64,000 bases of DNA from an uncultured bacterium. Lineage in GTDB: Bacteria > Elusimicrobiota > Elusimicrobia > Elusimicrobiales > Elusimicrobiaceae. The notes below the pieces were generated by a model. It ran no database searches, was not told the DNA's origin, and saw nothing but the letters and a program-made list of their open reading frames with translations. The stretch lies in contig CASFFZ010000007.1 in NCBI GenBank assembly GCA_949294095.1, positions 1 through 64,000 of the forward strand. The letters run 5' to 3'. A program made the position numbers and the translations under genes. Below are positions 13,927 through 26,013 of the stretch, piece by piece (positions within the stretch are counted from its first letter, which is position 1; each line of letters starts with the position of its first letter).

Positions 13927-14445
13927 TTAGAAGCGTCCGTTTACAATCACCATCGCCGGGAACCAGCCGTTTTCGGCAATGTTTAAAAGACCGATTTGCA
14001 GCCCGTCAATGGTTTTGGCGTAGTTTACAAAACCCAGCTGCAAGCCGTTTATGTATTCGGCTTGGTTGAAGAAGCCCCACTGCAAGCCGGTAGTGCTGTG
14101 CATAGAGAGGTTGACCAAACCCAGCTGTGCGCCGATTAAGTCGTCGTTTTTGGTCAGCAACCCAAGTTGCGCGCCTTTTACTTGGTTGGCTAGGTTGATG
14201 ATCCACGCCATGCTGACGCCGTTGAGTTCGTATTCGGTTTGGGCAAACAGGAAATCAAACTGCAAGCCGGTTACGGTAGCGGTTTTGGAAGCGATACCCA
14301 AATCCACGCCTTTTACGTCGTGAATGTTGTTGGGCACGGCTACTGCAATTTCGTCCCAGAGCGAGAGCTTTAAATTGCCCGCTTCGGCAGCTGCGGGCAT
14401 AGCCGCCGCCACGAATAAAGCCATAATCAAGGCTAGTTTCTTCAT
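13927..14445 (-). CDS. Secreted surface-repeat protein (LA_2272-like)
   Basis: This 172-residue protein has a cleavable signal peptide (MKKLALIMALFVAAAMPAAAEA) and then repeated units of about 15-20 residues with the core G-x-Q-(L/I/W)-G-(L/F)-(L/V/F)-N: GAQLGLLTK, GAQLGLVN, GLQWGFFN, GLQLGFVN and GLQIGLLN. The pattern is that of the LA_2272-type surface repeat proteins first named in Leptospira; their function is not known, and the alternating hydrophobic pattern suggests an outer-surface beta structure. A GGAGG site precedes the ATG. Its promoter is a mirror image of the nadE promoter. Confidence 0.8.
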   Translation of the reverse strand: MKKLALIMALFVAAAMPAAAEAGNLKLSLWDEIAVAVPNNIHDVKGVDLGIASKTATVTGLQFDFLFAQTEYELNGVSMAWIINLANQVKGAQLGLLTKNDDLIGAQLGLVNLSMHSTTGLQWGFFNQAEYINGLQLGFVNYAKTIDGLQIGLLNIAENGWFPAMVIVNGRF

Positions 14446-14569: not shown

Positions 14570-16072
14570 ATGAAAATAAATTTGGTTTCTTTTAATCCGC
14601 TGGCGGCCGACACCGCCGATAATTCTGCCCGCGTGCTGGACTTGCTGCGCGCGCCCGCGCCACAGGCGGACGTATGGGTGCTGCCGGAAGCGGCCTTGTG
14701 CGGCTGCCCGCTGTTTGATTTGTTTGACGACAAACGGCTGCTGGCGCAAAATCTGGCCGCGTTGAAAGAAATTGCCAAAGAAACCAAAGAAACGGCCATT
14801 GTTTTGGGATATATGGACAAGCAAAACGGCGCTTGCACCACCGCCGCGGCGTTTATATATAAAGGAAAAATCACCAAAATTTTTGACACCGAAACCGTGT
14901 CTTATAAAGGCAAACGCCTGCAGCTGGTGCTGGGCACGCCCGATCAGACCCCGGCCGACCCGGACGCGGACGCCGTCATCTTTCTGGCGGCGCGGCCTTA
15001 TTTAAAAGGAAACATCGCGCCGCGGGTGGACGCGCTTAAAAAGTTTGCCAAAAAGCACGGCGTTACCTCCTTATTATGCTGTTTGTTGGGCGGCGGCGAC
15101 GGAATGATTTTTGACGGGCTCTTGGCCGCGGCCGACAAAAAAGGCTCCTTAATCTTACTGGGCGAACCTTTCCGCGAGCAGACGCTAACGTTTGACTTGG
15201 ATGAAAAATATACGCCCGTTTCCTATAAAAAACCGTGGCAGGAAGAGCTTCTTTCGGCGCTTGCATTCGGTTTGCGCGACTATGTGCATAAAAGCGGAAT
15301 GGACAAGGTGATGTTTGGCATCAGCGGCGGGATTGATTCCGCCTTTACGGCCGTACTGGCGGCCAAGGCGCTGGGCGGCGAAAGCGTGTACTGCGTGTCT
15401 TTGCCGTCCTACTGCACCAGCGATTTAAGCAAAACGCTGGCCGGGCAATTGGCCCGCACGCTGGGGGTAAATTTGGAAGAAGTCGGCGTGATCCCGGCGT
15501 TGGGCGGCGTGAAGGAAGCCATTTCCCATATTGTTTCGCACCCCAAAGACACTACCGAACAGGAACTGCAGTCCCGCCTGCGCACCGCCATTTTGGGGGC
15601 CCTTGCCAGCGAATACCACGCCATGCTGATTTCTACCGACGATAAAAGCGAATGTGCGGTAGGATCCTTTGTACTCTACGGCGATGCCGGCGGCAGCTTG
15701 CAGCCGATCGGCGATTTGTATAAGAGCGAAATTTACGAACTGGCGGAATACATTAATAAACAAGGGGAGCTTATTCCGCGCGGCATTATTGAACGCGCCC
15801 CCACTTCCGAGTTAAGCCCCAACCAAAAAGACGAAGACCAGCTGCCGCCGTATTCCGTGCTGGACAAAATGCTCCGCGCCTATTTGGAAGAAGGCAAAAC
15901 GCCGGAAGAAATTGTCAAAAAATTTCATGTTAAGGCGGCCGTGGTGCAGGATGTGTTAACCCGCGTCAACCAGGCGGATTTAAAACGCCGCCAAACGGCC
16001 CCCGCCCTGCAGGTAAGCGCGCATCCGTTTGCATCGGTCTTGCGCCCGATTATCAAAAAGGTAAACTTGTAA
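14570..16072 (+). CDS. nadE: NAD synthetase with degenerate nitrilase domain
   Basis: NadE amidates nicotinate adenine dinucleotide to NAD. The C-terminal ATP-pyrophosphatase domain is intact: SGGIDS (252-257), a KSE-containing loop (TDDKSECAVG) and LYGD. The N-terminal half (about 1-230) has the carbon-nitrogen hydrolase fold that normally releases ammonia from glutamine, but only the first triad member, Glu40 in VLPEAALCG, is visible. The usual K-x-x-LPNYxxFDE block is absent, and where the catalytic Cys (CED) belongs the sequence reads LVLGTPDQTP (119-128). At 500 residues it is shorter than most two-domain enzymes. I infer an ammonia-dependent enzyme with a structural remnant domain. An AGAGG site precedes the ATG. 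Confidence 0.9.
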   Translation: MKINLVSFNPLAADTADNSARVLDLLRAPAPQADVWVLPEAALCGCPLFDLFDDKRLLAQNLAALKEIAKETKETAIVLGYMDKQNGACTTAAAFIYKGKITKIFDTETVSYKGKRLQLVLGTPDQTPADPDADAVIFLAARPYLKGNIAPRVDALKKFAKKHGVTSLLCCLLGGGDGMIFDGLLAAADKKGSLILLGEPFREQTLTFDLDEKYTPVSYKKPWQEELLSALAFGLRDYVHKSGMDKVMFGISGGIDSAFTAVLAAKALGGESVYCVSLPSYCTSDLSKTLAGQLARTLGVNLEEVGVIPALGGVKEAISHIVSHPKDTTEQELQSRLRTAILGALASEYHAMLISTDDKSECAVGSFVLYGDAGGSLQPIGDLYKSEIYELAEYINKQGELIPRGIIERAPTSELSPNQKDEDQLPPYSVLDKMLRAYLEEGKTPEEIVKKFHVKAAVVQDVLTRVNQADLKRRQTAPALQVSAHPFASVLRPIIKKVNL

Positions 16073-17079
16073 TGATTCGCAAAAGCGTGTGGCTGGGATT
16101 GTGCCTGTGTGTCGGCTCGTGCGTGTACGGGACGGAGACGGTGTTTCTCGGCCCGACGAATCTGCGCGTAAGCGACCAGGGGGAATTTTCGTGGGTGGAT
16201 ACGACCCCCAAACCGGAAGCGTTTGACAACCTGTGGGCCTACCGCTATTACCCCATTGAAAAAAAGCTGACGGGCATGGGCGTAAAAGTGGCCGTGGCCG
16301 ACAGCGGCATTTCTTCCCATCCGGAATTTAACGGCAAACATATTATGGGGCAGGATTTTACCATGTCCGGCGCGCTGACGGATTTAAAAAACCACGGCAC
16401 GGGCGTGGCCGGCATTATCGGTGCGCGCGGGCTGCGCTTTACGGGCATTGCGCCGGAAGCCTCGCTGCTTATTTACAAAATAGACGACGGCAGCCGCTTA
16501 ATCGGCCCGCAGGCCGCGGCCAACGCGCTCAATACGATTTTAACCTACAACGAACAACACCCCAACGATAAAATTACCGTCATTAATTTAAGCTACGGCG
16601 TTTCGGGCGGCGGCTACGCCGCGCTGACCAACGCCGTTAACCGCGCGCACGACTCGGGCATTACGATTGTGTCTCCCGCCGGGAACTATGGCTTTCCGGG
16701 TGTGTTTTACCCGGCCGACTTGTCCACCGTCATCGCCGTAAGCGCCTTGGGGGCGGACGGAAAAACCCTTTATCCCAATTCCGCCTACGGGCCGGAGGTG
16801 GATTTTATCGCCCCCGGAGACCGGGTATTCACCACTGCTTCAGACGGCGGCTATACCCTGATGAGCGGCACTTCCGCGGCGGCGGGCTTTGTAAGCGCCG
16901 CGGCGGCGCTGGCGGTGGAAGGGCTTACCCGCCAATTAGGCCGCTACCCCACGGCGCAGGAAGTGAAAGACGCTCTTAAAAAAGCGGCCGTCAAAATCCC
17001 GGGTTTGCCCGATATCGCCCAAGGAAACGGCATGATTGACGTAGCCAAACTGGAAAGCCAATTTGAAGCAACAAAATGA
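16072..17079 (+). CDS. Secreted subtilisin-like serine protease (S8)
   Basis: A 335-residue subtilase. The N-terminus has a signal peptide ending in VGSC, which could be a lipobox. The catalytic triad is D77 (VADSGI), H108 (NHGTGVAG) and S268 (SGTSAA), with the oxyanion Asn in SPAGNYG. There is almost no propeptide between signal and catalytic domain, unlike secreted subtilisins that fold with a large prodomain. Its ATG overlaps the nadE stop by one base and its stop overlaps the MATE gene, so the three are co-translated. The substrate is unknown. Confidence 0.9.
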   Translation: MIRKSVWLGLCLCVGSCVYGTETVFLGPTNLRVSDQGEFSWVDTTPKPEAFDNLWAYRYYPIEKKLTGMGVKVAVADSGISSHPEFNGKHIMGQDFTMSGALTDLKNHGTGVAGIIGARGLRFTGIAPEASLLIYKIDDGSRLIGPQAAANALNTILTYNEQHPNDKITVINLSYGVSGGGYAALTNAVNRAHDSGITIVSPAGNYGFPGVFYPADLSTVIAVSALGADGKTLYPNSAYGPEVDFIAPGDRVFTTASDGGYTLMSGTSAAAGFVSAAAALAVEGLTRQLGRYPTAQEVKDALKKAAVKIPGLPDIAQGNGMIDVAKLESQFEATK

Positions 17080-18446
17080 AAACAAAGGTCTCATCTAAAA
17101 AACCGCGAAAAGTAATCCGCCGGAAACTGTTTAATTTAACCAGCCCTATTTTTGTGGAAACGCTGCTGATTATGCTCACCGGCGCGGTGGACGTGTTTAT
17201 GCTCAGCCGCTACTCGGACGAAACCGTCGCCGCCGGGGGGGTGGTCAACCAACTGCTCAACTTGGTGTTTATTCTCTACGGCATTACCACGCTGGGCACT
17301 TCGGTGCTGTGCGCGCAGTATTTAGGCGCCAAACAAAAGAAAAATGTAGCCCAAGTGATTGGGGTTTCGCTGCTGGCCAACTTGCTGATGGGCCTGTTGG
17401 TAAGTGCGGGGCTGTTCTTCTTGGCACGGCCTTCGCTGCAGCTGATGGGGTTGGACGAGAGCCTGATCGGGTACGGCATTTCGTATATGAAAATTGTGGG
17501 CGGGTTTTCGTTCTTGCAGGCCCTGTCCATGACGCTTTCCGCTATTTTAAGAAGCCACAACAAAGCGTATTACCCGATGTTTGTTACCCTGCTGATTAAC
17601 ATCGTCAACGTCATCGGCAACTATATGCTGATTTTCGGCAATTTCGGTGCGCCGCGCCTGGGGATTACGGGGGCGGGCATTTCCACCTCGCTAAGCCGCC
17701 TCTTGGCGGTAGGACTGCTGGCCTATATTTTGTTTAGCAAAGTAACGGCGGTGCCGTCCCTTAAATTATTTAAGCCCTTCCCGTGGGATAAAATTAAAAA
17801 CCTGCTGACTATCGGCCTGCCGGCGGCGGGGGAACAGGTATCGTATAATTTATCGCAAGTGTTAATTACGTACTTTTCCGTGATGCTGGGCACGGCCGCG
17901 CTGACGGCGCGTACGTATGCCATGAACATTGTGATGTTTTCGTACGTGTTTGCCATTGCTATCGGGCAGGGGGCGGCCATTTCCATCGGGCATTTGATCG
18001 GGGAGGAGCGCGACAACGCCGCCTTCTCGGTAGAAAAATACTCCATTAAACTGGCCATGCTGGTAACGGTGTGCATTTCGGTGCTGACGGCGCTGGTGGG
18101 AACGGATATTTTTAAACTGCTTTCTTCCAACCCCGAGGTGATTTCCATCGGCGCAACGGTGCTGTATATTGACGTGTTGCTGGAAATCGGCCGGGCGGTA
18201 AACATTACGTCCGTCAACTCCTTAAACGCGGCGGGGGATGTTATGTATCCGTTCATTACGGGCATTATCGTGATGTGGGGGGTGGCCACGCTGCTTTCCT
18301 ATGTGCTGGGCATTTGGTGGGGCTGGGGGATCAACGGCATATGGCTGGCCATGGCGCTGGACGAAAACATCCGCGCCGTGGTGTTTGAACGCCGCTGGAA
18401 AAGCCGCAAATGGGAAGATAAAAGCTTCACGCGCCGGCGCGCGTAA
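17076..18446 (+). CDS. MATE-family multidrug/Na+ antiporter
   Basis: A 456-residue transporter with about twelve membrane helices in two similar halves and MATE sequence features (KLFNLTSPIFVETLLIMLTGAVDVFMLSRYSDETVAA at the start, LRSHNKAYYP in helix 4-5, LPAAGEQ in the second half). MATE proteins export cationic drugs or metabolites against Na+ or H+. It is the last gene of nadE-S8-MATE with a 4-base overlap. The substrate cannot be told. Confidence 0.92.
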   Translation: MKTKVSSKKPRKVIRRKLFNLTSPIFVETLLIMLTGAVDVFMLSRYSDETVAAGGVVNQLLNLVFILYGITTLGTSVLCAQYLGAKQKKNVAQVIGVSLLANLLMGLLVSAGLFFLARPSLQLMGLDESLIGYGISYMKIVGGFSFLQALSMTLSAILRSHNKAYYPMFVTLLINIVNVIGNYMLIFGNFGAPRLGITGAGISTSLSRLLAVGLLAYILFSKVTAVPSLKLFKPFPWDKIKNLLTIGLPAAGEQVSYNLSQVLITYFSVMLGTAALTARTYAMNIVMFSYVFAIAIGQGAAISIGHLIGEERDNAAFSVEKYSIKLAMLVTVCISVLTALVGTDIFKLLSSNPEVISIGATVLYIDVLLEIGRAVNITSVNSLNAAGDVMYPFITGIIVMWGVATLLSYVLGIWWGWGINGIWLAMALDENIRAVVFERRWKSRKWEDKSFTRRRA

Positions 18447-25937: not shown

Positions 25938-26013
25938 GGGCGTGTAGCTCAGCTGGGAGAGCGCCTCGTTCGCAACGAGGAGGTCGTCGGTTCGATCCCG
26001 ATCACGTCCACCA
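25938..26013 (+). tRNA. tRNA-Ala (anticodon CGC)
   Basis: A 76-base cloverleaf with encoded CCA (26011-26013). The acceptor arms GGGCGTG (25938-25944) and CACGTCC (26003-26009) contain the G3:U70 pair that identifies alanine tRNAs. The anticodon stem CCTCG/CGAGG encloses TTCGCAA, giving anticodon CGC, which reads GCG. D-loop (AGCTGGGA) and T-arm (GTCGGTTCGATCCCGAT) look normal. Confidence 0.95.

Follow-up and report, generated by a model that had tools for sequence, protein, structure and literature searches.

NAD synthetases (NadE) have been divided into enzymes fused to a glutaminase and single-domain enzymes, and De Ingeniis et al. (PMC3376133) explain the spread of the two forms without additional fusion or fission. 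The gene described here comes from an uncultured bacterium of the Elusimicrobiaceae (assembly GCA_949294095.1); the stretch of contig CASFFZ010000007.1 that was analysed, 64,000 nucleotides from positions 1 to 64,000 of the forward strand, is called the window. The gene represents a third state beside the fused and single-domain ones, namely a fused enzyme with a glutaminase half that is dead at the level of sequence and shortened, and this state is kept in 34 genomes. In the literature searched, no account was found of a NadE in which the glutaminase half is dead and shortened or the nicotinate pocket is altered.

The fused glutamine-dependent NAD synthetases (PRK13981; PDB 3n05, 5kha and 4f4h) have the same domain order and overall fold as the window's protein (Z 27-30 over 412-459 residues) and lie on the same side of the synthetase-domain tree, but the window's protein lacks the catalytic Lys and Cys, the loop and the glutamine-binding residues, and its nicotinate pocket is changed. 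Use of free ammonia would be shared with the single-domain ammonia-dependent NadE, type N of De Ingeniis et al. 2012 (PMC3376133). Type N has no glutaminase domain, whereas the window's protein keeps, in its structural model, a folded glutaminase remnant of about 215 residues and falls on the fused side of the tree with branch support 100/99. Both halves are homologous to those of the M. tuberculosis-type NadE (PRK02628; PDB 3dla and 6ofc), from which the window's protein differs in having no glutaminase site and a non-aromatic residue at the position of Trp490. The Francisella NadE* is reportedly a NadE relative that prefers another substrate and thus a precedent. PDB 3fiu, named NH(3)-dependent NAD(+) synthetase in the PDB, is presumably this Francisella NMN synthetase, and it keeps the Asn, Tyr and Thr lost in groups A and B of the shortened proteins.

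The shortened proteins fall into group A (19 sequences including the window's), group B (5) and group C (10; L076-L085), and groups A and B together form the window's clade of 24 sequences. Group C has the same dead, shortened glutaminase half as the window's protein, but unlike it keeps Asn332, Tyr366 and Thr368, and searches of its ten genomes found no further NadE in five of them. Sister enzymes with and without a normal nicotinate pocket would make a substrate change in the NadE family directly testable. For annotation the case matters because a protein that scores above the cut-off of the general nadE domain model, as the window's does, may nevertheless not make NAD. The gene and its downstream neighbours are as follows; the original prediction was placed at 14570-15280, which covers the nitrilase half of the frame.

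14570..16072, + strand: whole gene, an open reading frame of 500 aa with a shortened nitrilase half and an NAD-synthetase half
14570..15214, + strand: degenerate glutaminase (nitrilase) half, residues 1-215, recognised by its predicted nitrilase sandwich, fold matches and omega
15251..15994, + strand: synthetase half (PF02540; median omega 0.063 in group A)
16072-17079, + strand: subtilase-like frame, its start overlapping the nadE stop; named by eye, not by family search
17076-18446, + strand: MATE-type transporter; named by eye, not by family search

The C-terminal half matches Pfam NAD_synthase (PF02540) with 204 bits, and CN_hydrolase (PF00795) is matched by about residues 6-99 only, at a borderline 22.5 bits (23.7 in genome scans; cut-off 23.2). 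TIGR00552 (nadE) gave 162.9 bits, above its cut-off of 63.65, and the best NCBIfam whole-protein model, PRK13981 (fused NAD synthetase), gave 357.3 bits, below its cut-off of 479. Among the eight proteins compared, PRK13981 scored two intact relatives of the same family at 604 and 634 and an alphaproteobacterial one at 697, a protein with an eroded glutaminase at 507, two group C proteins at 420 and 422 and one group B protein at 374. The corresponding TIGR00552 scores were 163 for the window's protein and 161 for the group B protein, 192-207 for the two group C and three intact proteins, and 188 for the eroded one. Among the features that characterise the glutamine-dependent type F enzymes, the window's protein has, in its model, the N-terminal nitrilase fold fused to a synthetase, while the full triad, the glutamine-binding and tunnel residues and a PRK13981 score above cut-off are all missing.

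Motifs, predicted fold and selection in the glutaminase half

A scan of 90 genomes of the window's family yielded 34 shortened frames (L052-L085), all in the window's genus. Residues were counted in 32 of these, L068 and L085 being dropped since they are cut at an end, and compared with 22 intact relatives taken from the best PF02540 scorers and one further set; L014 and L039 (intact) and L031 and L043 (truncated) were not included. The roles of the triad, loop and tunnel residues of the NadE glutaminase follow PMC6946656.

14687..14689, + strand: Glu40 (LPEAAL), the sole residue of the catalytic triad that is kept (34/34 shortened frames, 22/22 intact)
14705..14707, + strand: Cys46, which occupies the place of the tunnel tyrosine (Tyr58 in the M. 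tuberculosis enzyme); of 32 shortened proteins 31 have Cys here and 1 has Val, and 22/22 intact ones have Tyr
14876..14887, + strand: residues 103-106, site of the missing segment with the catalytic Lys and YRE loop (K..LPxYxxFDE); gap in 32/32 shortened, present in 22/22 intact, a short link between two strands in the model
14924..14947, + strand: LVLGTPDQ (residues 119-126), without Cys, aligned where intact relatives have ICED(I/V)W
14993..14995, + strand: Arg142 at the SASP Ser of intact enzymes (Ser in 0/32 shortened, 22/22 intact)
15089..15118, + strand: GGGDGMIFDG (residues 174-183), a glycine-rich version of the intact element; Gly174-176, Asp177 and Gly178 in 32/32

Both the CED motif and the LPxYxxFDE motif are absent from all 34 shortened frames and also from 13/13 Elusimicrobiales-type loci from named records, so the loss is neither chance nor a sequencing error in a single genome. 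At single residues, the catalytic Lys, the Tyr and Glu of the loop, the catalytic Cys, the Glu following it and the SASP Ser are absent in 32/32 shortened proteins and present in 22/22 intact ones. At the glycine-rich element the intact relatives have Asn (14) or Gln (8) at position 176 and Glu (21) or Asn (1) at position 178.

In an AlphaFold2 model made with 15 sequences (mean pLDDT 78.6) the N-terminal half is a confident nitrilase sandwich, with pLDDT 74-97 in ten-residue blocks and a short link at the former Lys loop; residues 474-500 and several loops in the synthetase half are poorly predicted. Compared with solved structures, the whole model comes closest to fused NAD synthetases (Z 27-30). 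Taken by itself, the N-terminal half matches structures of the nitrilase superfamily with Z of about 22-25 and rmsd 2.2-2.9, the formamidase 5g3o giving Z 25.4 and rmsd 2.3 over 210 residues.

Median pairwise omega over residues 1-215 was 0.158 in group A, 0.109 in B and 0.133 in C, compared with 0.063, 0.033 and 0.074 in the synthetase half, saturated pairs being excluded from these medians (79 and 81 of 171 in group A). Where the synthetase halves have diverged little (0.03-0.2), the divergence of the remnant is 2.0-3.0 times theirs, and the corresponding ratio in intact enzymes is 1.1-1.4; at larger divergence the ratios of shortened and intact enzymes are similar. Purifying constraint on the remnant is real and weaker than that on the synthetase half, and a role as structural partner of the synthetase half is plausible.

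The glutaminase half is certainly dead across the whole shortened clade as far as sequence can tell, and the loss of glutaminase activity with retention of a shortened, folded nitrilase domain is well supported. This bears out the original prediction of a dead glutaminase with a remodelled, shortened nitrilase domain, through motif loss, predicted fold and purifying selection alike. Its particulars hold as well: Glu40 and the GGGDGMIFDG element are kept, the window's protein has no K..LPxYxxFDE segment, and LVLGTPDQ stands in place of CED and its Cys. The structure prediction it had proposed as a check returned a remnant predicted to fold as a nitrilase, within a whole model nearest to fused NadE structures.

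Docking of PII was considered as a reason for keeping the remnant and rejected, no P-II protein being found in 13 of the 14 genomes searched, the window's included; a control search found P-II in 13/14 reference genomes.

ATP site and nicotinate pocket of the synthetase half

Two comparisons were made. The first used the 68 positions that are at least 95% conserved in 23 fused relatives, including the eroded protein of g4. At these positions group A shows 16 departures, B 18, C 11, g2 13 and g3 21 (g2 and g3 being single-domain), and the median scores against a fused-type profile were 288.5 bits for A, 290.8 for B, 288.5 for g3 and 331.9 for C. Groups A, B and g3 are thus alike in overall divergence, and A and B are set apart by the residues that only they lost.

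The second comparison used 70 canonical enzymes, comprising 26 fused (F), 7 single-domain of the phylum (N), 7 further single-domain (E) and 30 of M. tuberculosis type (M), which are best matches and not a random sample, most of the fused ones being top PF02540 scorers. Of the 20 positions at least 90% conserved in each of the four classes, groups A and B lost only Asn332 and Thr368; the aromatic residue at 366, outside this set, is lost in them also. At the same 20 positions group C lost only Thr356 (Cys in 8/10), g3 only Ser257 (Cys in 3/3), g2 only Leu342 and g4 only Thr356.

15323..15340, + strand: SGGIDS ATP-pyrophosphatase motif, kept in the alignment
15563..15565, + strand: Glu332 replacing Asn (group A Glu 18 and Ala 1 of 19, group B Lys 5/5)
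15638..15643, + strand: Asp357-Asp358 replacing Gly-Asn in 24/24 of A and B; Asp358 also in 30/30 of M. tuberculosis type
15665..15667, + strand: Ser366 replacing the aromatic stacking partner of the nicotinic ring (human Tyr525, Trp490 in M. tuberculosis); in A and B Ser 23 and Pro 1 of 24, Tyr or Trp in 87 others
15671..15673, + strand: Val368 replacing Thr; in A and B Val 22, Ile 1 and Met 1 of 24, Thr in 87 others

The ATP site is kept, with S252, G253, G254, D256, S257 and E361 in 24/24 sequences of A and B and D372 in 23/24. Asn at position 332 is present in every other class, that is in F 26/26, N 7/7, E 7/7, M 30/30, g2 3/3, g3 3/3, g4 1/1 and group C 10/10. The M. tuberculosis type has Leu at 359 besides the Asp at 358. 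According to PMC6946656, a pi-interaction of human Tyr525 or M. tuberculosis Trp490 stabilises the nicotinic ring, and Glu455 and Val452 are named among the NaAD-binding residues. In the alignment with 3dla, residues being counted along with a construct offset of one, Trp490 corresponds to Ser366 of the window's protein, and Asn456, beside Glu455, to Glu332. Nine distinct solved NadE, 3fiu included, have Asn, the aromatic and Thr at the three pocket positions. This combination, picked after the losses had been seen, is missing in 24/24 of A and B and kept in the 87 others and the nine solved enzymes. Because of this choice after the event, a probability calculated for the three positions is circular and carries no weight here. 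Other marks of an NAD synthetase, the SGGxDS motif, the acidic residues and a TIGR00552 score above cut-off, are all present in the window's protein. The synthetase half had been called intact, which does not hold: beside a conserved ATP motif it has other residues in place of Asn332, of the aromatic at 366 and of Thr368.

Other NAD synthetases in the same genomes and history of the locus

The window's genome encodes a second, complete glutamine-type NadE of the M. tuberculosis type (L017, contig C1, 1081-3183, - strand), a 700-aa frame with KTHLPNYNEFYE and ICEDLW that scores 927 bits with PRK02628 (cut-off 473). A second NadE with Asn, the aromatic and Thr in place was found in 29 of the 34 genomes with a shortened protein; it is of M. 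tuberculosis type in 24 (G073 also having a single-domain one) and single-domain only in 5. Such a canonical second enzyme is present in 24/24 genomes of groups A and B and in 5/10 of group C (Fisher test, p 0.0009, descriptive only, since related genomes are treated as independent). In the other five group C genomes (G047, G092, G193, G136 and G258; completeness 85-96%) a scan with the second NadE matched the shortened protein only. With PF02540 each of them showed the shortened protein and one weak match of 361-474 aa (23-27 bits, cut-off 21), these weak matches being taken for other ATP-pyrophosphatases, and with PF00795 nothing besides the shortened protein except an Lnt-like frame of 541-548 aa. 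NadC and NadD are present in these five genomes and in that of the window, a search of all six for NAPRTase found none, and NAD thus seems to be made de novo in all of them.

A separate nitrilase-type glutaminase subunit was considered for the window's genome and rejected, its three PF00795 matches being the shortened gene, the complete NadE and, third, a frame of 584 aa whose length suggests Lnt.

Among the 30 M. tuberculosis-type loci, a strict pattern for the three glutaminase motifs found all three in 22. Six of the 30 (L123-L126, L128 and L129) are without the strict K..LPN(Y/T)xxF(Y/D)E though CED is kept, which reflects either a variant loop or an over-strict pattern. In a relaxed check of the 24 M. 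tuberculosis-type NadE that share a genome with a shortened nadE, the Lys-loop and Cys motifs were found in 24/24 and the PE motif in 23/24, L111 reading SPE. A shorter M. tuberculosis-type NadE, with a frame of 563-604 aa, was observed in four genomes of genus g2 (G013, G096, G243 and G288); its glutaminase half is 37-41% identical to that of the enzyme of this type in the window's genome.

A tree of the synthetase half was built from 58 rows, which took in 18 of the 34 shortened frames and left out the M. tuberculosis type. In it the shortened proteins form one clade with support 100/99, groups A, B, C and A+B are each supported by 100/98 or better, and the shortened clade falls on the fused side. 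As far as the retrieved stretches reach, the shortened nadE lies between rpsB on one side and the block yceD-rpmF-plsX (named by eye) on the other. The eroded form is flanked by rpsB and yceD; of two full-length forms one has rpsB on one side, and the stretch of the other shows no marker. Within the family the glutaminase half is intact in two genomes and eroded in one, and further relatives have no such half. Descent of the window's gene from a fused glutamine-dependent NAD synthetase is the best explanation of its origin. In 4/4 genomes checked that have an M. tuberculosis-type NadE, the neighbours of the locus are kept with no nadE match between them (one contig ends before rpsB), so loss of the gene is tolerated in the presence of another NadE; groups A and B nonetheless keep it.

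One full-length fused NadE (L087, 409-1971, + strand, in G126) keeps the Glu-Lys-Cys triad and has CAD for CED and Trp for the loop Tyr, and from these residues it may possibly be an early stage of glutaminase loss. The single-domain forms of g2 and g3 (three genomes each) stand on the fused side of the best tree. Complete loss of the glutaminase half from a fused ancestor in g2 and g3 is one possible reading, but an AU test does not reject their grouping with single-domain rows (p 0.449). Three single-domain NadE (L089, L090 and L092, in G302, G181 and G034) have the ATP motif SGGIDC, not SGGIDS, in 3/3.

Proposed function and rival explanations

The features of the shortened proteins would be explained by two steps. 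In the first, common to all 34 relatives, the glutaminase half lost the Lys-loop and Cys segments, after which glutamine would no longer be cleaved and the ammonia tunnel no longer fed; the domain would be kept folded and only free ammonia would be usable. Group C proteins would be the cell's NAD synthetase working with free ammonia. That group C makes NAD in this way is very probable, given that searches of half of its genomes found no other NadE and, besides, only an Lnt-like nitrilase-type frame, and that all five have NadC and NadD. In the second step, on the A+B branch only, residues in contact with the nicotinate moiety of the substrate, or next to those that are, changed while the ATP-activating site stayed. 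The window's protein would then adenylate a carboxylic acid and amidate it with free ammonia, the preferred acid being presumably no longer deamido-NAD, and NAD in the window's genome would be made by the complete NadE encoded elsewhere.

The window's protein is read here, with a probability of roughly 0.5, as an ATP-dependent amide ligase that has been repurposed, in preference to an ammonia-dependent NadE that has survived. A substrate change is the most likely reading because the pocket residues are lost, the ATP site is kept, constraint is strong (the synthetase half is not relaxed, with median omega 0.063 in A and 0.033 in B) and a normal NadE is present in every A and B genome. Since the pocket changed a single time, on the stem of A+B, there is one event to connect this change with the second NadE. 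Weighing against repurposing, the departures of group A (16/68) and its profile score are no more extreme than those of g3, in whose three genomes PF02540 shows no other strong NadE match; pockets tolerate change, as Asp358 and Leu359 of the M. tuberculosis type illustrate, TIGR00552 is still above its cut-off, and none of the neighbouring genes points to another substrate. Somewhat short of an even chance is given to the full history, in which the loss of the glutaminase from an NAD synthetase was followed, after the cell had come to have another NadE, by a change of its pocket; the product would be an amide ligase that uses ammonia, forms an adenylate and acts on a different acid, the pseudo-glutaminase being kept as a structural part and group C being a living intermediate.

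The original prediction of an ammonia-dependent NAD synthetase fits group C best, where the protein is the sole NadE found in 5/10 genomes; it is doubtful for the window's protein, given the changed pocket and the separate complete NadE. That the latter still makes NAD with free ammonia, pocket changes merely retuning affinity and glutamine and ammonia enzymes serving different nitrogen conditions, is a tentative alternative that deserves to be taken seriously. The kept ATP site would agree with it, as would the sister group C, apparently the sole NAD synthetase in five genomes, and a divergence of the A and B synthetase halves no greater than in g3, which looks like a working NadE; coexistence of two-domain and single-domain forms is recorded for Thermotoga maritima in PMC3376133. 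It has to account, however, for change at three positions whose character all other NadE examined preserve, one being the stacker on the nicotinic ring. Moreover, five of the 24 genomes of A and B (G049, G063, G067, G130 and G183) yielded a second NadE of the single-domain form only, and there a split by nitrogen source does not explain why both are kept.

Alteration of both active sites would suit a catalytically silent protein that assists the other NadE in regulation or structure, but such a role is improbable in view of the kept ATP site and of the five group C genomes in which no other NadE was found for it to serve. A version of this idea that involves PII would lack its partner, given the search for P-II in 14 genomes described above. 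Still less credence is given to a new Cys/Lys pair rebuilding the glutaminase site, for example Cys46 with Lys98, Lys100 or Lys103: Cys46 lies at the tunnel-tyrosine position near Glu40 in 33/34 proteins and the three Lys are present in 34/34, but Cys46 is Val in L069, and the loop and the glutamine-holding residues are gone. The amide ligase with a changed substrate remains the favoured reading for the window's protein.

As a functional partner of the shortened nadE the MATE transporter was rejected; it is present in 32/90 genomes, 9 of these without shortened nadE, and was not found in 11/34 carriers. On the other side, a small exported-looking protein (window 13927-14445, - strand) adjoins nadE in most of the relatives retrieved and was matched twice in L132, L133 and L135. 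A tRNA gene at 25938-26010 (+ strand) is the sole Rfam match at gathering threshold in the window.
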